Positions 3,733-64,000 of a DNA stretch of 64,000 nucleotides are shown here, piece by piece. Source of the stretch: Pseudomonadota bacterium. Lineage in GTDB: Bacteria > Pseudomonadota > Gammaproteobacteria > Pseudomonadales > Azotimanducaceae. The translations under genes were made by a program, and so were the position numbers. The notes below the pieces were generated by a model, which saw nothing but the letters and a program-made list of their open reading frames with translations, had not been told where the DNA came from and did not search any database. Position 1 is the first letter of the stretch. Each line of letters opens with the position of its first letter. The DNA is taken from contig JAQBUI010000005.1 of NCBI GenBank assembly GCA_027624035.1, forward strand, positions 46,661-110,660, written 5' to 3'.

Positions 3733-5463
3733 TCAGGCTGGTTTTCCGTCGCGGTGATGACGACCGGAGTCGCCAAAGCGCCTTGCAAACCATCTGCCAA
3801 TGGTGGTCTGGGGCTCCACTCTACCGGTCACGACATAGTCCAGTACCATCGTGTTCTGAAGGATCCAGCGCATGCTGGACTCGCTGGTACGATTCCCGGC
3901 AAACAGCAGTTGATCGCCGGTGGAAAGTGGCGTGTCCAGGTCCGGCATTGAAAAAGCGCCCCTTGAGTTTGAATGCAGTAAAGGAATGATGGGCAATGTA
4001 TGCTGGCGATCTCTGTGGTCCTTCAATAGATGATAAAGAAGGACCTTCTGATCAGCTCTCAGTCTTTCAGAGACGGCATGTGCCTCGTCGCTATTGATTC
4101 TGATGGCCCACAGGTGAGGAAGGCGATCAGGTGAGATGGTCTTCAGCCGCTGGGTCAGTTCCATGGCCCAGTCGTCGTCGTGGGACCTCGCCAGGCTGAG
4201 GAAGTCGTCCACCAGAGGATTGGTCAGCAACGTTCGGACCTTGTTCACCAGCACCTGGCTCGAGGCCATCAGCAGGTCTGCACTTGAAGCGGCAAAGATG
4301 TCGCGATTGAAGTTTTCTGTTTGTCGAAGCACCACGAAGAGGTCCGGGTTCAGTTCTCTGGCCGTGACCATGATGGACAGATTGTTGGAGTCGTCATTGG
4401 CGCCAGCAATGATGCCAACGGCAGATTCGGCACGGGCTTGCTGCAGGGTAACGGCCTCGGTACCAAGGCCGATGATGGACCCTTCCGGAAGGTCCTGGAT
4501 ACCGGTGTCAGGTTCAATGACGGTGACCTCCAGCCCGTGCCGGACCATCTCCGAGAAGACTGCCCGCCCGAAGCGACCGAAACCGCATAGAATCCACCGC
4601 CCCCGGGGTAGGACCAGCAGTTTGGACAGGGGCGCGCCGGACTCGCTGTGAAACCAGCTGCTGAGCATGTACTGGTGGGGCGAGTGGATAGCCAGGCCCA
4701 ACAATGTGGCGAAGCTGTCATAGGGGTCCACGATGTGATCGGTTCCAAAGGATGCGAGATTGGCTTCTATCTCATGGGAGTCGGCACGGCAGATCACTCG
4801 TAACGACGGGTTCAGGACCCGGGCCGCGATGGCAATGTGAAGGTTTACCGCATTGTCGTTGGTCAGCGCGACGACGGCATCACACAGTGGATGAGTGATG
4901 CCGCCGATGATGAGGTTGTGGGGCTCTCCTGCATTGGCACAGATAGCGGGCGTGAACAGGGGCGAGTCAGTTAATGTCAGGGCATCGATGCGGTCCTGAT
5001 CAATATCAATGACCGTTGCAGCCATTCTGCTGCTGCGCAGTGACCGGAGCAGCTGGCTGCCGGTGTCACCATAGCCGCACACCAGGAAGAATCGCTCGCT
5101 GAGATTCTGGACCTGGCGCGTGAACTGATATTCGGTGATGGCCCGCTTGAGTGACTCTTGCTTAAGCAGGCTGATCAGGGCGCCGATTGCGTAGATCCAT
5201 GTTGCCACCGTGATGTAGATGAAGATGAGCGCCCACATGCGCTGGGCATCGGTAAAGGGATAGGGTATTTCGCCAAAACCGATGGTGGTGCCCATAAAGG
5301 ACACGAAGTAAAAGGCATGGAAGAAGTCCATATGCCAGACGTTGCCTTGATCGTCCATGCCCGGAATGAGCGTCAGGCCGATGGTGGCAACGGCATAGAC
5401 AGTAGAGAGCAGCAGCAGCGGCGCACGCATCTGCCGCAGCAGCAGAAGGATGATGGAGTCCAT
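3733..5463 (-). CDS. Potassium channel protein with two TrkA-N/NAD-binding domains
   Basis: Pore-type segment FVSFMGTTIGFGEIPYPFTDAQR, then VCGYGDTGSQLLR and CGFGRFGRAVF Rossmann motifs. Confidence 0.85.
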   Translation of the reverse strand: MDSIILLLLRQMRAPLLLLSTVYAVATIGLTLIPGMDDQGNVWHMDFFHAFYFVSFMGTTIGFGEIPYPFTDAQRMWALIFIYITVATWIYAIGALISLLKQESLKRAITEYQFTRQVQNLSERFFLVCGYGDTGSQLLRSLRSSRMAATVIDIDQDRIDALTLTDSPLFTPAICANAGEPHNLIIGGITHPLCDAVVALTNDNAVNLHIAIAARVLNPSLRVICRADSHEIEANLASFGTDHIVDPYDSFATLLGLAIHSPHQYMLSSWFHSESGAPLSKLLVLPRGRWILCGFGRFGRAVFSEMVRHGLEVTVIEPDTGIQDLPEGSIIGLGTEAVTLQQARAESAVGIIAGANDDSNNLSIMVTARELNPDLFVVLRQTENFNRDIFAASSADLLMASSQVLVNKVRTLLTNPLVDDFLSLARSHDDDWAMELTQRLKTISPDRLPHLWAIRINSDEAHAVSERLRADQKVLLYHLLKDHRDRQHTLPIIPLLHSNSRGAFSMPDLDTPLSTGDQLLFAGNRTSESSMRWILQNTMVLDYVVTGRVEPQTTIGRWFARRFGDSGRHHRDGKPA

Positions 5464-46124: not shown

Positions 46125-47464
46125 TGGAAGTTCTGAACAGATCAGGCATCACGCTGGCTGCAGTGGCATTGGCTGGTGCATTGCTTGGCGCAACGGCGGG
46201 CGCTGCGCTGACATGGTGGTGGAACGATGGCGCGATGGATCATCAGCCGGCTACTGATACGGGCGAGGCAGGCAAGGAGCCCCTCTACTGGGTTGCACCA
46301 ATGGACGCCAATTACCGTCGTGACAAACCTGGAAAGTCCCCAATGGGGATGGACCTGATTCCGGTTTACGAAACATCGGGCGGCGACAACGATCCGGGTT
46401 CGATCACGATCTCGCCCGATGTGATGAACAACCTGGGTGTGCGTACGGCGGCAGTGACTCGGGGGCGTCTTGTCGACACGGTCAACACCGTGGGCCATGT
46501 GCAATATGACGAGGATCGATTGGTTCATATCCATCCCAGGGTAGAGGGCTGGATTGAAACCCTCCATGTCAAAGCCACGGGCGATCCTGTGGAACAGGGT
46601 GCGCCGTTGTATGCGCTGTATTCGCCCACCCTGGTCAATGCCCAGGAGGAGTTGCTGCTGGCATTGAGGCGGGGTAGCCCCTCGCTGATCTCTGCTGCGA
46701 TGGAGCGGCTGTCTGCGCTGAAAGTGCCAGAGTCCGACATCGACCAGATAAAGAGCAGCGGCAAAGTGAGCCAGACCATTACGATCACAGCGCCCCAGTC
46801 GGGCGTGCTGGATAACCTGAACGTCCGTGAAGGCATGTACGTTCGGCCTGGTATGGAGGTGATGAGTATCGGTCAGCTGGAACACATCTGGGTCATTGGA
46901 GAGGTGTTCGAGCGGCAGGCGGCCAGTGTCAGCGAAGGCGATGCCGTCCGCATGCGGCTGGATTATCTGCCTGGTCGTGAGTGGTTGGGCAAAGTGGACT
47001 ACATCTATCCATCGCTCAATATCAAAACCCGCACGGCCCAGGTGCGGGTACGCTTTGACAATCCAGATGTGTTCCTGAAGCCTGGCATGTTCGCGCAAAT
47101 GGCCATTGCCGCCAGCCCTTCGAAGCCGAGCCTGCTGATACCCAGTGAGGCCCTCATTCGCACCGGCAGCCAGACCCGGGTGGTACTGGCAAAGGGCGAG
47201 GGGCGCTTCAAATCCATCGCGGTCACGGTGGGCAGAATCGGTGAGCACCAGGTGCAGGTCCTGTCTGGCCTTGCAGAGGGTGAGCAGATTGTGACATCAG
47301 CCCAGTTTCTGATTGATTCTGAATCCAGCAAGACCTCTGACTTCACCCGCATGGCGCATGATGGAGAGGCTCCGCCCATGGATCACAGCCAGCATCAGGG
47401 CATGCAGCACCGCCCTGAATCGGGTCCGGTCGATGGTGATCAACCGGAGCATAAACATGATTGA
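46121..47464 (+). CDS. Efflux RND periplasmic adaptor (CusB-like)
   Basis: YWVAPMDANYRRDKPGKSPMGMDLIPVYE heavy-metal-binding region; barrel-sandwich and adaptor motifs; overlaps upstream stop. Confidence 0.9.
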   Translation: MMEVLNRSGITLAAVALAGALLGATAGAALTWWWNDGAMDHQPATDTGEAGKEPLYWVAPMDANYRRDKPGKSPMGMDLIPVYETSGGDNDPGSITISPDVMNNLGVRTAAVTRGRLVDTVNTVGHVQYDEDRLVHIHPRVEGWIETLHVKATGDPVEQGAPLYALYSPTLVNAQEELLLALRRGSPSLISAAMERLSALKVPESDIDQIKSSGKVSQTITITAPQSGVLDNLNVREGMYVRPGMEVMSIGQLEHIWVIGEVFERQAASVSEGDAVRMRLDYLPGREWLGKVDYIYPSLNIKTRTAQVRVRFDNPDVFLKPGMFAQMAIAASPSKPSLLIPSEALIRTGSQTRVVLAKGEGRFKSIAVTVGRIGEHQVQVLSGLAEGEQIVTSAQFLIDSESSKTSDFTRMAHDGEAPPMDHSQHQGMQHRPESGPVDGDQPEHKHD

Positions 47465-50400
47465 GGCCATTATTGTTTGGTCCGTCCGCAACCGCCTGCT
47501 TGTGTTGCTGGCTACCGTGATTCTGGTGGGGGTGGGTATCTGGTCGCTGCGAAACACGCCGGTGGATGCCATCCCGGACCTGTCCGACGTGCAGGTGATC
47601 ATCAAGACCAGCTATCCCGGGCAGGCACCCCAGGTGGTGGAAGACCAGGTCACCTATCCTCTGACAACCGCCATGTTGTCGGTGCCCGGCGCGGTGACAG
47701 TACGCGGCTATTCCTTCTTCGGCGACTCCTATGTTTATGTGATCTTCAATGAAGAGACCGATACTTACTGGGCGCGCTCGCGAGTGCTGGAATACCTGTC
47801 CCAGATCGCGCCCACCCTGCCCGCCAGTGCCCGGCCACAACTGGGGCCGGATGCCACCGGCGTGGGCTGGGTGTATCTGTATGCGCTGGTAGACAGAACC
47901 GGCCAGCACGATATCAGCCAGTTGCGCAGTCTGCAGGACTGGTTCCTGAAGTATGAATTGCAGACCGTGCCGGGCGTATCCGAAGTATCCACCCTGGGCG
48001 GCATGGTCAGGCAGTATCAGGTCAAAGTGAACCCGGATAAGCTGCGCGCCTTCAACATGCCGCTGTCTCACATTCAGCAGGCCATCCAGCGGGGTAATCA
48101 GGAAGTGGGCGCATCGGTCGTCGAGATGGCGGAGGCGGAATACATGGTGCGCGCCAGCGGTTATATCGAGGGGGTAGAGGACCTCGCCACGATCCCGCTC
48201 GGTCTCGATGTCAACGGCACACCGTTGCTGCTCAAGGATGTGGCCGATATCGGGATCGGTCCACAAATGCGCCGCGGCATCGCGGAACTGAACGGTGAGG
48301 GCGAAGTGGTGGGCGGCATCGTGGTGATGCGGATTGGTGAAAATGCCCAGCGGACTATCGCTGGCGTCAAGGCCAGGCTCGAGTCCCTGAAGGCCGGACT
48401 GCCGCCCGGGGTCGAGGTCGTCACGGTCTACGATCGGTCCGGCCTGATTGAACGGGCGGTGGACAATCTCTGGCACAAACTGCTGGAGGAGTTGATCGTG
48501 GTGGCACTGGTCTGCATGGTGTTTCTGTTCCATGTTCGCTCCAGTCTGGTGGCCATTGTCAGCCTGCCGGTGGGCATTCTCGCGGCGTTCGTTGTAATGC
48601 ATCTGCAGGGGCTCAATGCCAACATCATGTCGCTCGGTGGCATCGCCATTGCGATCGGCGCGATGATTGATGGTGCCATCGTGATGATCGAGAACATGCA
48701 CAAACACATGGAACACACCGAGCTAACGGACCAGAACCGGTGGCAGGTCGTGACACAGGCGGCGACCGAGGTGGGGCCGGCCCTGTTTTTCAGCCTGCTG
48801 ATCATCACCGTCAGCTTTGTGCCGGTGTTCACGCTGGAGGCCCAGGAGGGGCGGATGTTCAGCCCGCTCGCTTTCACGAAGACCTACGCGATGGCCGCCA
48901 GTGCCGCATTGGCGGTGACCCTGGTACCCGTACTCATGGGTTACTTCATTCGTGGCAGGATCCTGCCTGAAAACCGAAACCCCCTCAATCGGGCGCTCAT
49001 TGCTGTTTACCTGCCGACGCTGAAGATCGCGCTGAACCACCCGCGGAGCACGCTGGTCATTGCCGTGCTCATCACTGCCGCGGGTGTCTGGCCGATGTCA
49101 AAGATCGGCAGTGAGTTCATCCCGCCACTGGACGAGGGGGACCTCATGTACATGCCCACCACCTATCCTGGCCTGTCAATCGGTAAGGCCAGGGAACTCC
49201 TGCAGCAGACCGACAAGCTGATCGCCACCGTGCCCGAAGTGAAAACCGTGTTCGGTAAAATCGGCCGGGCAGAGACCGCGACAGACCCCGCACCGCTGAC
49301 GATGATCGAGACCTTCATCCAGCTCAAACCAAGGGAGCAATGGCGCGAGGGAATGACCACCGAGGCGCTGACACAGGAACTGGATGCACTGGTCAGGTTT
49401 CCCGGCCTGACCAACGCCTGGGTGATGCCGATCAAGACCCGCATCGACATGCTGGCCACAGGTATCAAAACGCCGGTCGGCATCAAGGTGGCGGGCCCGG
49501 ACCTGCGGGAAATAGAAACAATCGGCAAGCGTCTTGAACAGGTGCTGGCGCAAGTGCCCGGGACTGCATCGGTCTATTCCGAGCGGGTGGCGGGGGGGCG
49601 CTATATCACGGTCGACATTCGCCGGGAGCAAGCTGCCCGCTATGGTTTGAACATTGCCGATGTACAGCAGGTGGTCGCCACGGCGATTGGTGGCATGAAC
49701 GTCACCCAGACCGTTGAAGGACTGGAACGGTATCCTGTGAATCTGCGCTATCCTCAGGATTATCGCAACTCGCCGGAACAATTGTCGCTGTTGCCGATCG
49801 TGACCGTCAGCGGCCAGCGAATTGCCCTCGGCGATGTGGCGGATGTGACGGTGGAAGACGGCCCGCCAGCCATCAAGAGTGAGAATGCTCGCCCGAATGG
49901 CTGGACCTTTGTGGACATCGAAGGCGTGGATATCGGTAGTTATGTCAAGCAGGCGCAGACAGCAGTCGCGATGCAGGTGCAATTGCCAGCGGGTTACTCT
50001 CTGAACTGGTCGGGGCAGTACGAGTACATGCTGCGTGCCGGGGAAAAGCTGACCTATGTGGTGCCGCTGACGCTGGGCATTATTGTGCTGCTGTTGTTTC
50101 TGAACTTTCGCAGCCTTGCCGAAGTGGCGATGATCATGGGTACCTTACCCCTCGCGCTGGTGGGGTCAGTCTGGCTGATGTACATACTCGGCTATAACTT
50201 TTCGGTTGCAGTGGGTGTGGGCTTTATCGCGCTGGCGGGCGTTGCGGTGGAGATTGGCGTCATCATGCTGGTGTATCTTAATCAGGCGTACGACCAGATG
50301 CTGGTCCGATGCCAGCAGGAGGGTGAGTCACCCGGGCAGGAGGCCCTGCGCCAGGCTGTGCTCCGGGGCGCCGGGTTGAGGGCACGACCTGTCATGATGA

Positions 50401-50585
50401 CGGCGGCCGCCACTATCGTCGGTCTGTTGCCTGTCATGTATGGCACCGGTACCGGTTCGGAGGCGATGAGCCGGATCGCCGCTCCTATGGTCGGTGGAAT
50501 GATGAGTGCGATGATATTGACCCTGGTCGTTCTGCCAACGGTGTACTTTCTGTGGCACTCATGGGCAATTCGCCGTGCGGGGTAG
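47457..50585 (+). CDS. Heavy-metal RND efflux permease (CusA/CzcA family)
   Basis: [80 protein letters not shown]. Confidence 0.95.
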   Translation: [1042 protein letters not shown]

Positions 50586-55902: not shown

Positions 55903-56439
55903 CTAATATCCCTTCTGCCTGGCGCGCTCGATCGCATCGGTAATCAGGCCTCGGGCAACGTCGGCACCTTCCCATCGGTCGAGCTTGACCCACTTGTTGG
56001 TTTCCAGATCCTTGTAGTGTTCGAAGAAATGCTGGATCTGTTGCACCGTGATTTCCGGGAGCTCACTGACGTCCCGGACCTTCTCATAGCGGCGGGTCAG
56101 TCGGGTACTGGGGACGGCAATCACCTTTTCATCATGACCGGCTTCGTCCCGCATGATCAGCACACCGATGGGCCGGCAGTTCAGCACGGCGCCAGGGATG
56201 ATGGCACGGGTGCTGGCACAGAGCACGTCGATAGGGTCGCCGTCGTCAGACAGGGTGTGGGGTACAAATCCATAGTTGCCCGGGTAGCGCATTGGCGTAT
56301 ACAGGTAACGGTCCACGAACAGTGCGCCTGACGCCTTGTCCATCTCGTATTTGATGGGTTCGCCCCCGACCGGGACTTCGATCACCACATTGATGTCGTT
56401 CGGGGGCGAATCCCCGATGGGGATCTCGTCGAGTCTCAT
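55903..56439 (-). CDS. ppa: Inorganic pyrophosphatase
   Basis: [51 protein letters not shown]. Confidence 0.95.
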
Positions 56440-56955: not shown

Positions 56956-57675
56956 CTAGGGCAGCAGTTCTTCCCGCCGGTTGCCCCTGACGAAGGCAAG
57001 GCCAAGGATGGCGGCCATGACGAGGGCCATTGCGATACGGTTCTGTACCGTCCAGGCAAGCAGTTCTTCGTCGGAAGTGAACTGCTGGCTGCCCTCGGCG
57101 AGGGTATAGGGATTGAAAAATGGCGTAAAGCGAAGCTGGTTGTCGCCGAACCCCGTCAGGATGCCGTTGGCTGCCAGGACCACCAGGGTGGTGATGACGG
57201 CGCTCGCCTCGGACTTGAAGAGGGCGCCCATGGCCATCGCAATGATCATATAGAAGCAGGCTGCCTGCAGCGAGCCGTACAGCATTCCGGGCGGAAATGG
57301 CGTAAACAGCGCCCAGACGCATAGCGCCAGCAGGCATTCAGCGGCAATCAGCGTCAGCAGGCTGGCCGCGAGCTTGATCCACCAGAGCCGTTCCACACCA
57401 CCGGGAACGGTATAGGCAATCTCCAGGCTCCGGTCGTCGATTTCGCCCGCGATGATGCGCATCCCCAGGAAGACGCCGAGCGCCGTTAACGGTACGGCGA
57501 TCATTCCCTGAACATCGCCGGGAGAGACCGCGCCCGCATCACCATTGATGAAGAATCTGACCCCCGCCTGAAACAATGGCCAGGCGAGAGGCAGCAGCGG
57601 CAGCACCCAGAACCGGTGGCCTGCCAGCACCAGCATGGCAAGACGTAGAAACGGCAGATCTACAACAGGCTTCAT
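56956..57675 (-). CDS. ABC-2-type transporter permease
   Basis: About six TM segments; MRIIAGEIDDRSLEIAYTVPGG typical of ABC-2 permeases; start overlaps upstream stop (ATGA). Confidence 0.75.
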   Translation of the reverse strand: MKPVVDLPFLRLAMLVLAGHRFWVLPLLPLAWPLFQAGVRFFINGDAGAVSPGDVQGMIAVPLTALGVFLGMRIIAGEIDDRSLEIAYTVPGGVERLWWIKLAASLLTLIAAECLLALCVWALFTPFPPGMLYGSLQAACFYMIIAMAMGALFKSEASAVITTLVVLAANGILTGFGDNQLRFTPFFNPYTLAEGSQQFTSDEELLAWTVQNRIAMALVMAAILGLAFVRGNRREELLP

Positions 57676-60600
57676 GCGAATGCCTCCGTCTGGGACAGCA
57701 GCCACATGTATCCGTCCTCGAGCGTCGCGGGCAGCGGTGTTGCCGTGGTGGCCGGTTTGTCGGCGTGAATCAGTCTGTGAATGACGGCGCCGTCGGCAGC
57801 GGGTGTCTCCTGGGACCGGATCACCCCGTCCGGCAATGAGACCTCGTTAGACGGGGAACGCAATTCCCACACGCGACCATTTGCCACTCTGGCAAGGGCC
57901 CCGGTTTCGCCGTCATAGACCAGGTGTCCCCTGGCGATCACCAGCACCCGATCACAGGCAACTGCCACGTCTTCCACGACATGAGTGGACATCAGCACGA
58001 TTCGGTCCCGGGCCAGTCGGGACAGCAGATTCCGGAACCGGATTCGCTCCCTGGGATCGAGCCCCACCGTGGGTTCATCGACGATGATGATGGGGGGCAG
58101 GCGCAGCAGGGCTCGGGCCACGGCCACCCGTTGCCGCATGCCTCCGGACAGCGAGGCGATTCGTTCGTCTACCTTGTCGGTGAGCCCCACTTCCGTCAGC
58201 AGGCCATCCACCCGCTGCTGACGTTCGGCAGGCGGGATGTTATACAGGGCGGCGTACCAGGACAGGTACTCCCTGGGTGACATGCCGCCAGGCATTCCGG
58301 CATCCTGTGGCAGGTAGCCGACCCATTCGGCCAGATGGCGCTGAATCTTTGGCATGGGAACGCCGCCAACACGGATGGTGCCGCGTGTAGGGTCCATCAC
58401 GCCCGCCAGCTGGCGCAAGAGTGTCGTTTTACCGGCACCGTTAGGCCCGAGAATTCCAATCATGCCCCGGTCGATGTTGAAATGAATGCCAGCCAGGGCC
58501 TCGATGGGCCGGACTGGCAGGTCGGGTCCGGCCAGTCGAATGGACCAGTCGCGCCAGATGGAGGTCAGCCTGCCAGCCGGTCGGCGGCTATTGTTGTTCA
58601 CTGAGGCTTGTTTCGCCGTGCGACGCAGGCTCTGTGCGAGCAGTAACACCAGCGCGGCAATACCACAGACGAAGTACACTCCAGGCAGGACGAGCCCATT
58701 GACGTAGGGCACGATGGCTTCGTGTGACGTGAAGGCGGCCAGTGCCAGCCAGGGCAGTGCGAGGGTAATGGCAGGTTCGAATCGCCCGGCGGAATCGCCC
58801 CGGAATCGTCGAACGGCGATCAGCAGTCGCCCCAGCATCAGGCTCGCGACCAACCAGAAAAAGACCTGCCAGAAAGCGGACTGCACCATGAGGGCCAGGG
58901 TAGCGCCACCTGTAACGCCCAGTCCCAGTGGAATCAGGCTGTCGCGGGCATCCTCCTTGAGGCTGGTGGAGCCGCCCCGGGCGCTGACTGCGCTCCTGAA
59001 GACCGATGGGGCCATGAGTCCCCGCCGGATGGCGCCCGGCATGCCATAGGTCTTGTGCAGAAATCTGACTACCAGAGACGGTGGGCCGCCGGCCGTGTCA
59101 GGCACGGGAATATCCGATGGCCTGAATATCATCACGACGATGGCCAGAAGTGCCGACGCGGTCAGTATTGTCAGCACCGACTGCCACAGCATCGACGTAA
59201 CGGTATCGGACAGGATCAGCGTGCCCATGATCAGCACGGTACCCAGCATCCAGGCCAGCACCAGCCAGGGGCCAACCCTGCTGAAGATGTCATCGACCCG
59301 GCGCAACAGGATGTATCCGACGGGCATCACCAGCAGCGTCAGAAGACCGGACGTAATCAATCCGCCAATGACAATGATGGCGAACGGTGGCCAGATCTCA
59401 TTTTCCCGACCTGATGTGATGGCGAGGGGCCAGAGGCCCGCGATGGTCGTGGCGGTGGTCATGAGTACCGGGCGGGTTCGTTCCCGCACCGCGCCGTAAG
59501 CTGCCGAACCCAGTTTCCAGCCGCCTTCACGGGTCAGTTGCTGCATCCGGTCGACCAGCAGGATGGCGGGGTTTACGGTCAGACCCACCAGCACCAGGGC
59601 ACCAAGTGCCGCCATCATGCTGAACGCCGTGCCAGACAGCGCCAGCGCCCATACGGCGCCCAGCAGCGTGATCGGCAGTGCCAGCAGCACCAGTATCGGC
59701 AGCGTCAGCGATTCAAAGGTCATTGCCAGAACCAGAAACAGCAGCCCCAGCGCGGGAAATCCCACCCGCCGTGTCCAGGAAGTTGTGGTGTCTTCTTCCT
59801 GGGTTTCGACCGCGGTGCCCCGGGGGCGTGGAATGGCACTGATGGCCTCGGCGATCTGTTCCTCGATGGCAATGCGTGACGGCCCTGTCTGGGGTATGTC
59901 GCCGCGCAGTCGATACCGCACAGTGAGTTCCCGGCGGCCGTTGTGATGGGCAATCACAGGAGGAGCCGGCATCTTGCGAATATCCGCCAGATGGTCGATG
60001 GGGTGCACGCCCGAGGGGGTCTGCACCCGCAGGCGGCCCAATTCCTGCAGGCCGATGTTCTCTTCCCTGGCGCTGCGGCGCTCTACCACCAGGGGCAGCT
60101 CGCGGCCGTTATCCAGCACGAAGCCGGTGTCCATTCGCTGGCCCTCGCGGCCGGCGAGAGACAGTATGGGAGTGACCTGGCTGAAGCTGAGGCCCAGGGC
60201 CTCAAAGGTTGACCTGACTGGTGAGAGCCAGTATTCGCTCATCCCGGGACGGACGCTCGTCCAGGCATCTTCAACCTGGGGCAGGGACTCAAGCCGGGCC
60301 TCCACGCTGCTTGCCAGATCGGTCAGTACCCGGGTATCGGGCCCCGACAGAATGATTTCCGCCGGAGCGCCACGAAAGGCTTCACCGGGGGACTGGTTGC
60401 CGCCTGCGGAACCGTTCCTGCGTTCGTCTCCCGGGCGAAGGATTTCCAGACCCTGGACAGATTTCGCAGCCTTACGGACCAGGCTCCAGATCTGCTGCAC
60501 TTCAAAGTCGGCAGGCAGATCATCGTGGTCGATAAAGCTGATGGTCAGCCCTGCGCCATCTGGCTCAATCAACGCTTCGACGGTCTCGACAGCCGGATGC

Positions 60601-62402
60601 CCGGTCAGCGCCCGTTCGAGGTGGGCAATGGCATCACTGGCGATGTCGATGGTGCGGTCGCTGGGGAAGCGGGCGGCAATCTGGATCTGTTCCGGTCGTG
60701 TGGCCTCCGAGGCATCGCTGTTGGACACCACCCACGGCAGCGCGATGATCACCGTAATCAGAATGGCACCCACAGTACTCGCCAGCAGTGTCGCTGGCTG
60801 GCGCAGCGCGGCGGCCACGATGCCGGTGAAGATGATCCGGGCGGGGTCCGGTTTGCGCAGGTTGCCCCGCAGTTGGCGTCGGCGTCGATTTTCAAGCAGG
60901 CGCCTGGCGGCGGCGGGAGCGGCCAGCCGATGCGCCAGCAGCGGCACCAGGCCTACTGCCACCAGCAGCGATGCCAGCAGCGGCAACAGGATCGCCAGAC
61001 TGACGACAGCAATCAGGCTGCGCATCATTTCATCATCCATCTCTACCACGGCGGCAGGCAGGAATACGACGGCCGTGGTGGCGCTGGCCGCGGCAATGGC
61101 GCGCACGGTGCGCCGCAACCCCTCACGGGTGGCGGCTTCGATGGGTTGGTCACGTTCAAGGCCACGGGAGATGGCTTCAAATACCACCACGCTGTTGTCG
61201 ACAACGAGGCCAATCGCCATCATCAGGCCAAACAGGGAAACCAGGTTCAACGACTGCCCGCTGATGTACAGCAGCGACAGCGCCGCCATCAGACTGACCG
61301 GAACGGCAATCGCGACCACAGCAACGGCCCGCCACTCGCGCAGGAAGAAAAACAGCACCACCAATGCAATCAGAAAGCCCGATGCGCCCAGCCGGGAGAG
61401 CCTCGATATCTGTTCTTCCACGGCTTCGGCGGCATCGAAGTTAATGACCAGATCGAGCCCCTGGGCGGCCGTTTCATTGCGCACTTCTTCCACCCGTTCA
61501 CGAAGCGTGCGGCCGAGACGAACCAGGTTGGAGCCCTGTTCCTGGAACACCACCAGGCCCACGGCGGGTCTGCCGTTGACCCGGAGCAGCCGTTCTTCCT
61601 CCCCGGTGCCGAGCTCGACCTCCCCGACATGGCGCAGCAAGCCAGGGCTGTTCCAGGCGACCCTGGAATCTGCCAGCGCATCAACCCCGATCGGGCGGCC
61701 GTCCAGCACCACGGCAGTGCGGCCGCTTTCATCTTCCAGCGCGCCCACATAGCGCATCCGACCGACTGCTCGCTGAACCATGCTGACGATGCTATCGAGG
61801 GTCAGGCCGATGGAGGTTGCCCTCATCGGGTCTACCGTCACGTTAACCTGCTTGCGGGCGCCACCGGACGCCTGGGCCTGGCTGACGCCGGATATCACGG
61901 CGAATCTCGGTGCGATGATCTGCTCGGTCAGGTCATACAGGGCATCCCGGTCACTTTCGTCTGCGCCCAGGATGTGGATCATCATGGCAAGGTCCGAGAT
62001 GGCGCCTGTGCCGGCGGCCCTGACGTTCATCCAGGCGCCACGGGGCTGTTCCCGCTGCATTTCGGTCACCACCCGCTGCAGTTCGAGTTCCCGGATCTTG
62101 ATGTTGACGCCCGGGTCGAAGCGGACCGTAAAGTTGCCAGAAGGTCCCTGGACCTGCCCCCAGGTCTCCGAGACACCCGACATGGCGGAAACCTTTGCCT
62201 GCAGGGGCAGCAGGATGTCCCGTTCGATCACCTCAGGTTCGCTGCCCGGCCGGTAGAACTGAACGTTGATCCGGTTGCCGACCAGTGTGGGAAACAGCTC
62301 AACGGGCATCTTGAGCCACGCGACCATTCCCAGCAGCAGAATGCCGAGAAAGAACATCGACACCGCCACAGGTCGATGGATCGGCAGCATGAGGAATCCC
62401 AC
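57672..62402 (-). CDS. RND efflux permease fused to additional TM region and C-terminal ABC ATPase domain (1576 aa)
   Basis: N-terminal RND features (PVELFPTLVGNRINVQFYRPGSEPEVIERDI, GLVVDNSVVVFEAISRG, VGLTVNPAILLVDRM, RTRPVLMTTATTIAGLWPLA); C-terminal GPNGAGKTTLL (Walker A), LSGGMRQRVAVARALL (signature), IIIVDEPTVGLD (Walker B), STHVVED (H-loop) in the same frame without a stop. Confidence 0.85.
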   Translation of the reverse strand: MGFLMLPIHRPVAVSMFFLGILLLGMVAWLKMPVELFPTLVGNRINVQFYRPGSEPEVIERDILLPLQAKVSAMSGVSETWGQVQGPSGNFTVRFDPGVNIKIRELELQRVVTEMQREQPRGAWMNVRAAGTGAISDLAMMIHILGADESDRDALYDLTEQIIAPRFAVISGVSQAQASGGARKQVNVTVDPMRATSIGLTLDSIVSMVQRAVGRMRYVGALEDESGRTAVVLDGRPIGVDALADSRVAWNSPGLLRHVGEVELGTGEEERLLRVNGRPAVGLVVFQEQGSNLVRLGRTLRERVEEVRNETAAQGLDLVINFDAAEAVEEQISRLSRLGASGFLIALVVLFFFLREWRAVAVVAIAVPVSLMAALSLLYISGQSLNLVSLFGLMMAIGLVVDNSVVVFEAISRGLERDQPIEAATREGLRRTVRAIAAASATTAVVFLPAAVVEMDDEMMRSLIAVVSLAILLPLLASLLVAVGLVPLLAHRLAAPAAARRLLENRRRRQLRGNLRKPDPARIIFTGIVAAALRQPATLLASTVGAILITVIIALPWVVSNSDASEATRPEQIQIAARFPSDRTIDIASDAIAHLERALTGHPAVETVEALIEPDGAGLTISFIDHDDLPADFEVQQIWSLVRKAAKSVQGLEILRPGDERRNGSAGGNQSPGEAFRGAPAEIILSGPDTRVLTDLASSVEARLESLPQVEDAWTSVRPGMSEYWLSPVRSTFEALGLSFSQVTPILSLAGREGQRMDTGFVLDNGRELPLVVERRSAREENIGLQELGRLRVQTPSGVHPIDHLADIRKMPAPPVIAHHNGRRELTVRYRLRGDIPQTGPSRIAIEEQIAEAISAIPRPRGTAVETQEEDTTTSWTRRVGFPALGLLFLVLAMTFESLTLPILVLLALPITLLGAVWALALSGTAFSMMAALGALVLVGLTVNPAILLVDRMQQLTREGGWKLGSAAYGAVRERTRPVLMTTATTIAGLWPLAITSGRENEIWPPFAIIVIGGLITSGLLTLLVMPVGYILLRRVDDIFSRVGPWLVLAWMLGTVLIMGTLILSDTVTSMLWQSVLTILTASALLAIVVMIFRPSDIPVPDTAGGPPSLVVRFLHKTYGMPGAIRRGLMAPSVFRSAVSARGGSTSLKEDARDSLIPLGLGVTGGATLALMVQSAFWQVFFWLVASLMLGRLLIAVRRFRGDSAGRFEPAITLALPWLALAAFTSHEAIVPYVNGLVLPGVYFVCGIAALVLLLAQSLRRTAKQASVNNNSRRPAGRLTSIWRDWSIRLAGPDLPVRPIEALAGIHFNIDRGMIGILGPNGAGKTTLLRQLAGVMDPTRGTIRVGGVPMPKIQRHLAEWVGYLPQDAGMPGGMSPREYLSWYAALYNIPPAERQQRVDGLLTEVGLTDKVDERIASLSGGMRQRVAVARALLRLPPIIIVDEPTVGLDPRERIRFRNLLSRLARDRIVLMSTHVVEDVAVACDRVLVIARGHLVYDGETGALARVANGRVWELRSPSNEVSLPDGVIRSQETPAADGAVIHRLIHADKPATTATPLPATLEDGYMWLLSQTEAFA

Positions 62403-62403
62403 G

Positions 62404-64000
62404 TCAGCGGCCCGGGCTGGATGCCGGACGGTGGCGGATGCTGTCCAGGATCAGATACAGGCAGGGCAGCACCACAATCGAGCCAACGGTCGAGGCAATG
62501 ATCCCGCTGATGATCGTCATAGCCATCGGGGCACGTAATGCCGCGCCTTCACCGGAACCATACAGCAGCGGCGCCAGCACCAGGACGGTGGTCAGGGTGG
62601 TCATGATAATCGGCCGCAGGCGGATGCCGGCGGCGGCCACCAGCGCGTCGACGCGTTCCTGGCCGTCGGCCATCAACTGCCTGGCGGTTGAGATCAGCAG
62701 CACCGCATCGTTGACTGCGACTCCGGCGAGAACAATCAACCCCATCATGGCCATCACGCCGATGGGCTCACCGAGTGGTGTCAGCGCCAGCGCGACCCCA
62801 ATCATCGCAATCGGGATGGCTGCCAGTACGGTAATGGGATGGATGAAGGATTCGAATGACCCGGCGAGCACCATCAATACCAGCACAAGAGCCAGGATAC
62901 CGGCCAGCTTGAGTTCGCCGAAGGTTCTGGCGCGTTCTGCCTCATCGCCACGAAGCTGGGCGTGGAGCCCTGGGGACAGGGCCTCGTCAGCCAGCAGCTT
63001 GTTGACCGCGGCGATCGCCTCAGGATAGGAGACGCCATCGGCGATCTCTGCGGTGACCTGGGCGGTTCTTCGCTGGTCCCGCCGGAAGATCTCCCGGGCA
63101 CCTTCTGTCTGCACGAAGGTGGCGATCTCTCCTACCGCCACCTTCTGCCCTTGTGCGCCCCGGAACACGATCTGGCTCAATGACTCCCGGGTGGCTGGGG
63201 TGCCTCGGAGATTGACCGGTCTGTCCTCGTCACCCATGGACAATGTGGTGACATCACGGCCATTGAGGCTGGCTTCGAGCACCAGTGACAGGGTTCGCAG
63301 GTCGATGCCCAGACCATCGGCCATGGTTCGATTCAGCACGATGCGAAGCTCAGGTGGCCCCCCTTCGAAGGACGAACGAACGTTCCACAGTTCCGGCAAG
63401 GCCGCCATCCGGGTTTGAATCTGGTCCGTTCCCCGGCGCAGGTCCGGTAAAGCCTGGCCCGAAATTTCCACCATTACCGGCGGGCCGCCACTGCCGAGGG
63501 CACTTGCCAGCGCGCCTGATCCTACCTCCCAGTCCACCGTGGTCGTGGGGAGCGATGTCAGTTCTGGCGTCACGGCTTCCGCGATCTGCCTGCCCGTAGG
63601 GCCACCTGCGCCGACCCGCACTGTAATCCGTGCGGTGTTTTCCTCGGTCAGTTCGGTTCGGATCAACCGGCTGTCTTCCGGCAGCCGTCCGATCTCGGAG
63701 AGCATGGCTTCGAGGTGCTCGCCCGTTGCCTGCTCGACCAGGGATTCAATGCTCTGGACCACGCGGCTGGTGGATTCAACCCGTTGCCCGGACGGACCCA
63801 CGATTCGTATCGAAAACTGCCTGGGGTCCGAGGCGGGTAACAGCTCGGTACCCAGATTCAATAGTGAGAAACCGGCCAGGCCTGCCAGCACTGTTGCCAC
63901 GAGGACAGTGATCAGGGGCCTTGCCAGCAGGCGGCGAACCAGTTGCTCTACTGCCAGGCGATATCGGGGCGTGACGCTCCGGGCTTCGGGATTGTATCCA
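62404..64000 (-). CDS. RND efflux permease (N-terminus beyond window edge)
   Basis: FGELKLAGILALVLVLMVLAGSFESFIHPITVLAAIPIAMIGVALAL; GLIVLAGVAVNDAVLLIS; RLRPIIMTTLTTVLVLAPLL. Frame stays open to 64000 (EARSVTPRYRLAVEQLVRRLLARPLITVLV). Confidence 0.85.
   Translation of the reverse strand, partial: GYNPEARSVTPRYRLAVEQLVRRLLARPLITVLVATVLAGLAGFSLLNLGTELLPASDPRQFSIRIVGPSGQRVESTSRVVQSIESLVEQATGEHLEAMLSEIGRLPEDSRLIRTELTEENTARITVRVGAGGPTGRQIAEAVTPELTSLPTTTVDWEVGSGALASALGSGGPPVMVEISGQALPDLRRGTDQIQTRMAALPELWNVRSSFEGGPPELRIVLNRTMADGLGIDLRTLSLVLEASLNGRDVTTLSMGDEDRPVNLRGTPATRESLSQIVFRGAQGQKVAVGEIATFVQTEGAREIFRRDQRRTAQVTAEIADGVSYPEAIAAVNKLLADEALSPGLHAQLRGDEAERARTFGELKLAGILALVLVLMVLAGSFESFIHPITVLAAIPIAMIGVALALTPLGEPIGVMAMMGLIVLAGVAVNDAVLLISTARQLMADGQERVDALVAAAGIRLRPIIMTTLTTVLVLAPLLYGSGEGAALRAPMAMTIISGIIASTVGSIVVLPCLYLILDSIRHRPASSPGR

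Follow-up and report, generated by a model that had tools for sequence, protein, structure and literature searches.

RND and ABC exporters are regarded as separate classes with different energy sources. In the heterotrimer MdtBC (B2C), proton coupling falls to one subunit and substrate binding to the other (PMC4338810). SecDF belongs to the RND superfamily and is a proton-driven machine that aids an ATP-driven translocase (PMC8277102), and MacB is an ABC protein that acts with an adaptor and TolC and has a periplasmic domain similar to those of RND proteins (PMC5595328; PMC5985334). The locus described here lies in a stretch of 64,000 nucleotides from a gammaproteobacterial genome, which is referred to as the window, and is built around a gene that encodes an RND permease and an ABC ATPase in one polypeptide (RND2::ABC). 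Like MdtABC and MuxABC (HAE-1), it has two different AcrB-type permeases and one adaptor per operon; however, those systems have neither an ABC domain nor ABC-2 permeases, and the two RND permeases here (RND1 and RND2) are about 30% identical, whereas MdtB and MdtC are about 50% identical. With MacAB-TolC and VarABCDEF it would share an ATP-driven inner-membrane unit that works with an adaptor and an outer-membrane channel, but in these systems the permease is of the MacB type (type VII) and not of the ABC-2 type, and the complex lacks an RND permease. NosDFY and other ABC-2 (type V) transporters (NosF/NosY, PmtCD, DrrAB, and GldA) are similar in ATPase sequence and fold, with NosY as the nearest permease fold, but their own ATPases are free soluble subunits, and we know of no ABC-2 (type V) ATPase that is split by transmembrane (TM) helices or fused to an RND protein. 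SecDF with SecYEG and SecA differs in consisting of separate proteins, in having a protein substrate, and in having no ABC component.

No description of an RND-ABC fusion was found in the open-licence literature, an absence that is weak evidence, and fusion sequences may already be recorded with generic RND names. As far as checked, the parts are known, and the covalent RND-ABC combination and the split ATPase are not described. The joined gene and its gene set are shared by at least four phyla, and this suggests an export machine that has not been described, perhaps one that uses two energy sources at once.

The fusion gene starts with GTG and runs uninterrupted for 1576 codons on the minus strand. 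Pfam assigns ACR_tran to residues 6-1033 (E 3e-152; profile positions 4-1020 of 1021) and ABC_tran to residues 1305-1445 (E 3e-29), which bears out an earlier sequence-only reading of a single minus-strand frame that passes from an RND permease into an ABC ATPase. The features of the fusion and of its neighbors in the window are as follows.

56956-57675, minus strand: small ABC-2-type permease (likely ATG start at 57675; alternative GTG at 57705)
57672-62402, minus strand: RND2::ABC fusion, 1576 aa (ORF list, Pfam, and alignment of 31 homologues)
59298-62402, minus strand: RND permease domain, residues 1-1035 (Pfam ACR_tran 6-1033 and conserved motifs)
59127-59273, minus strand: two additional predicted TM helices that follow the RND domain, residues about 1044-1092 (AlphaFold2 and hydropathy)
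59046-59075, minus strand: putative A-loop strand (LxKxYG) that opens the ABC ATPase, residues about 1110-1119 (invariance and predicted strand)
58599-58958, minus strand: predicted four-TM insert within the ATPase, residues about 1149-1268 (AlphaFold2)
57675-58505, minus strand: remainder of the ABC ATPase (Pfam, alignment, and Foldseek matches to ABC ATPases)
58425-58448, minus strand: Walker A of the fused ATPase, GPNGAGKT
58128-58151, minus strand: signature of the fused ATPase, LSGGMRQR
58059-58091, minus strand: Walker B of the fused ATPase, IIIVDEP
57975-57992, minus strand: H-loop of the fused ATPase, STH
62404-63999, minus strand: RND1, C-terminal 531 aa (gene cut by the contig end)

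At the sequence level, the ORF was confirmed to comprise a complete AcrB-type RND permease, six additional TM helices, and a complete ABC ATPase. Walker A, the Q-loop, the signature, Walker B with the catalytic E, and the H-loop are all present in the window's fused ATPase, and Walker A, the signature, Walker B, and the H-loop were found in all aligned full-length homologues, with conservative changes in a few. The body of the fused ATPase matches ABCA4, NosF, and LptB in sequence and ABC ATPases in fold (Foldseek), and it is nearest to the ABC-2/DrrA/GldA type. Two long ORFs lie antisense to the fusion gene (59974-61752 and 60525-62501, both on the plus strand; 592 and 658 aa). They are probably GC-rich shadow frames, which a gene caller could choose mistakenly. 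No Rfam or tRNA feature was found in the 64-kb window.

The membrane-rich middle of the protein is real, but it is organized differently from what had been proposed. An AlphaFold2 model built from 26 aligned homologues (mean pLDDT of 82) predicts two TM helices (about 1044-1092), a strand (1110-1119), a helix, four TM helices (1149-1268), and then the ATPase body. The L, K, and Y of the LxKxYG strand, including Y1119, are invariant in the alignment, and the pattern resembles the A-loop strand of ABC ATPases. The spacing between this tyrosine and Walker A is 200 residues in the window's fusion and 23 residues in the free ATPase of its own operon type, so that the nucleotide-binding domain appears not to be contiguous. 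The corresponding spacing is 200 to 219 residues in the fusions of Proteobacteria and Acidobacteria and 200, about 189, and 131 residues in three Bacteroidota proteins. In addition, a profile of the first 40 columns of the free ATPase matches most linkers at the A-loop position, in the same register, with scores that are each weak and close to the best of shuffled controls. The A-loop assignment was made because recurrence, invariance, and the predicted strand agree, and the nucleotide-binding domain appears in this model to be split by a membrane insert with four predicted TM helices. This apparent split, with the A-loop strand ahead of the TM insert, had been overlooked in the sequence-only reading of a full C-terminal ABC ATPase; the segment that had been placed in front of the ATPase is rich in TM helices but is not an ABC transmembrane domain, and four of its helices are predicted to sit inside the ATPase. 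For the ABC fold, an A-loop separated from Walker A by TM helices would be unusual.

The closest solved relatives of the RND domain are AcrB/MdtB-type pumps. Its TM4 contains VVDNSVV (D402) and its TM10 contains VNPAILLVD (N944, P945, and D951), and these motifs are kept in the 31 homologues. The single TM4 aspartate (VDN or IDN) is invariant, and TM10 reads VNP or INP, with N replacing AcrB K940 in 31 of 31 aligned homologues. In the Bacteroidota fusions, these residues are DN and NN. The AcrB-type relay, consisting of D407/D408 in TM4 and K940 in TM10, is therefore not found as such in the fusion (DN/N). However, ordinary RND permeases of the window's genome and its relatives carry DN/N too, which indicates that it marks an RND subtype and not a loss of function; an RND half that has no proton relay and is driven by ATP instead is unsupported for the same reason. 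Judged by these residues, the RND half gives no sign of lost proton coupling. A further complete RND permease of the window (47313-50585, plus strand) is of the CusA/CzcA heavy-metal type by its TM4 and TM10 motifs (IDGAIV and VEIGVIM) and is unrelated to the fusion set.

A scan of GTDB genomes retrieved 35 loci that match the fusion with identities of 43% to 65%, most of them full-length in one frame, from Gammaproteobacteria, one deltaproteobacterial genome (placed in Myxococcota), and several Acidobacteriota lineages. The full-length single-frame homologues of Pseudomonadota, Myxococcota, and Acidobacteriota are 42% to 65% identical to the fusion. In total, 31 distinct full-length homologues were aligned. 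More distant fusions were found in Bacteroidota, including a Bacteroidales example of 1532 aa with both Pfam domains, and the fusion and its conserved gene set occur in at least four phyla. A junction profile (residues 1040-1300), which requires the linker region, matched 54 of 207 genomes and 8 of 37 genera of the window's family, and no complete match in the family has a frame shorter than 1592 aa. The same profile matched 22 of 297 Acidobacteriota genomes. In 396 Bacteroidota genomes, a strict threshold gave six fused proteins (frames of 1536 to 1640 aa), with the Bacteroidales example counted among them. Among 399 genomes sampled evenly across the window's phylum, only the window's genome and one doubtful partial match were recovered, which indicates that the system is rare overall. 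A linker match in genome G218 was weak and partial and lay in a 1022-aa frame, and no match was found in plasmids.

The window's genome is a draft of 171 contigs, and the joined frame could accordingly be suspected to be an artefact of assembly or gene calling, in which two genes are run together by a missing stop. The probability of such an error is negligible, and it is ruled out, as is chance, by the 31 distinct full-length homologues, by the single-contig chromosomes among the junction carriers (G616, G617, and G599), and by the dN/dS values over the junction (residues 1000-1125), which are well below 1. These values were about 0.05 to 0.18 in most pairs of close relatives with measurable change, indicating that purifying selection acts on the junction as coding sequence. 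It had also been considered that the homologues might always occur as two genes, but none of those found with the linker profile is split at the junction, and the short frames have other causes: those inspected are contig ends (G556, G1239, G1185, G1312, G1248, and G1098), and others sit at the edges of contigs, as judged by their coordinates (G012, G487, G1021, and G1240). One locus (L100, genome G507) has an in-frame stop inside the RND domain, away from the junction (3917-3930), in an otherwise complete fusion, which represents either a sequencing error or a decayed copy. Another candidate, a 1317-aa RND frame (L021), was rejected as an N-terminal over-extension of a plain RND permease.

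In loci with enough flanking sequence, the fusion belongs to a set of six genes in the order ABC ATPase (about 320 aa), large ABC-2 permease (about 1170 aa), RND adaptor (a lipoprotein of about 360 aa), RND1 (about 1025 aa), RND2::ABC (about 1595 aa), and small ABC-2 permease (about 247 aa). The inner-membrane modules are therefore doubled, with two ATPases, two ABC-2 permeases, and two RND permeases. The sequence-only reading had proposed an unusual system with RND and ABC joined in one protein, which is well supported, but it had overlooked the additional ATPase, the ABC-2 permeases, and the second RND permease. In the window, the TGA of the fusion overlaps the ATG of the small permease as ATGA, and the stop of RND1 lies 1 base ahead of the fusion start. 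The window's contig (C81) ends within RND1. A second contig of the same genome (C130) starts with the missing first half of RND1 (residues 1-497 of the protein of a relative, versus 503-1021 on C81), followed by the adaptor, large ABC-2 permease, and ABC ATPase genes (L010, 1-7156). Joined, C130 and C81 give the exact gene order of the relatives, and the two contigs most likely adjoin inside RND1. Since the set lies on two contigs, its linkage in the window's genome was deduced from the order in the relatives and the complementary RND1 halves. Just downstream of the set, a gene resembling inorganic pyrophosphatase (55903-56439, minus strand) is probably an unrelated neighbor. In genome G005, two near-identical copies of the set (L025 and L030, contigs C6 and C10; dN of about 0.002 in the RND part of the fusion) represent a recent duplication or an assembly duplicate.

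The locus may encode a composite trans-envelope exporter, in which an ABC-2-type transporter and a heteromeric RND pump share one subunit, and we consider the chances of this reading to be about even. The fused and free ATPases would form a heterodimer bound to the two ABC-2 permeases, and RND1 and RND2 would form a mixed trimer like that of MdtB and MdtC. Using ATP, the ABC unit would flip or extract a substrate, probably lipophilic or envelope derived, from the cytoplasm or the inner membrane. The RND trimer would then use the proton gradient to pass this substrate on through the adaptor and the outer-membrane channel. Through the fusion, the ABC unit would be held next to the RND entrance. 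A pump in which ABC feeds RND would fit the conserved operon. The composite exporter is supported by the conserved gene order, including that of Bacteroidota with a TolC-like gene in the operon, by the presence of two of each inner-membrane module in the set, and by the two-RND heterotrimers established for MdtBC (PMC4338810). Tentatively, and with a probability somewhat short of even, the fusion may define a hybrid transporter class that combines in one polypeptide an RND engine powered by protons with a split ABC ATPase embedded in the membrane, where ATP hydrolysis and the proton gradient would drive successive steps of export over both membranes within a single complex. A conserved covalent RND-ABC link with fixed partners would allow a direct test of the handover from an ATP step to a proton step, and the exported substrate could be an envelope lipid or a natural product.

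A homologue of the small permease lies directly downstream of the fusion in most loci; its best Foldseek match is NosY (E 0.03, probability 1.0), and a homologue has a weak Pfam match to ABC2_membrane_2, below the cut-off. The adaptor of a relative belongs to the RND_mfp family (TIGR01730, 199.6 bits versus a cut-off of 94.9), and the window genome's own adaptor on C130 matches HlyD_D23. An OEP-family gene for an outer-membrane channel lies beside the set in L032, and a TolC-like gene, recognized by size, place, and sequence only, lies within the set in the Bacteroidota loci L058 and L105/L106; no outer-membrane factor gene was seen in the window genome's own set. The large permease has weak N-terminal matches to ABC-2 proteins and weakly matches the sandwich of an M1 metalloprotease, and each of the 16 members has a Golvesin C-terminal domain. 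No conserved HExxH is present in its M1-like domain, and an active M1 peptidase was rejected for this reason. Its length and N-terminal ABC-2 match imply a periplasmic region of 800 to 900 residues. Instead of moving substrate across the membrane, ATP could serve mechanical coupling as in MacB or NosDFY, with ATP cycling that changes periplasmic parts, opens the RND/adaptor complex, or extracts a periplasmic or membrane substrate. This alternative is unlikely, since transporters of the ABC-2 fold are mostly classical exporters and the MacB periplasmic core was not found here, with no Pfam match to MacB_PCD or FtsX in the fusion or its neighboring genes. It draws on the NosFY folds among those nearest to the small permease, on the implied periplasmic region of the large permease, and on the precedent of MacB as an ABC protein working with an adaptor and TolC (PMC5595328; PMC5985334).

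RND1 is inherited together with the fusion. Of the 54 fusion-bearing genomes in the window's family, 53 have an RND1 orthologue (at least 53% identity), whereas none of the 153 fusion-lacking genomes has one. This pattern would fit two RND permeases that function only together, as in an MdtBC-type heterotrimer. The exception, G556, is an 85% complete genome that has the fusion only as a contig-end fragment, and six more genomes of the family have only an RND1 paralogue of 32% to 33% identity. In genus g8, the fusion and the small permease lie at one locus, and the ATPase, large permease, adaptor, and RND1 lie at a distant locus. RND1 is kept in 18 of 18 fusion-bearing genomes of this genus, and the adaptor, large permease, and free ATPase were alongside it at all four RND1 loci read (L116 to L119). 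Retention after division of the operon is good evidence that both halves serve one function, and the co-inheritance of RND1 and the fusion, including the divided g8 sets, supports the composite exporter. The operons that are split over two distant loci with all genes kept (L036, L038, L049, and L019) represent a natural experiment on subunit membership. The RND and ABC parts of the fusion both look complete, as they would if the fusion were a mere tether for co-assembly or equal dosage and the two pumps worked independently on different substrates. Such a tether is very improbable, since at least four phyla retain the split-ATPase fusion, no split-gene version was found, and RND1 and the fusion were not seen apart in the family except in that one fragmentary genome.

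In a tree of ATPase domains, with 20 other ATPases of the window's genome as the outgroup (its sampling thus coming from one genome), the fused ATPases, the free ATPases, and two Anaerolineales ATPases form one clade (support 100/98). The free-ATPase group is well supported (100/98), and the fused group including Bacteroidota is less well supported (68/78). In this tree, the fused and free ATPases show a common origin relative to the other ATPases tested, and the simplest reading would be that an ancestral ATPase was duplicated and one copy was then fused. The clade of fused and free ATPases supports the composite exporter, together with the conserved ATPase motifs, the NosY-like permease fold, and the invariant TM4 aspartate. 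However, both ATPases keep all canonical catalytic motifs, which weakens it, because homodimers are equally possible. The set may accordingly contain two separate ABC units, in which the fused ATPase would homodimerize on two copies of the small permease and the free ATPase and large permease would form a homodimer of their own, with only the first unit tethered to RND. The fusion and small permease, which overlap by ATGA and stay together when the rest of the set lies elsewhere, are consistent with this arrangement. It is nevertheless rather unlikely, since neither half was seen alone in the family and the two ATPases form sister paralogues among the ATPases tested, a pattern that a duplicated heterodimer pair would produce. 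The two Anaerolineales loci (L059 and L060) encode free ABC ATPases with no evident RND genes beside them, and these ATPases are possible relatives of the pre-fusion ATPase.
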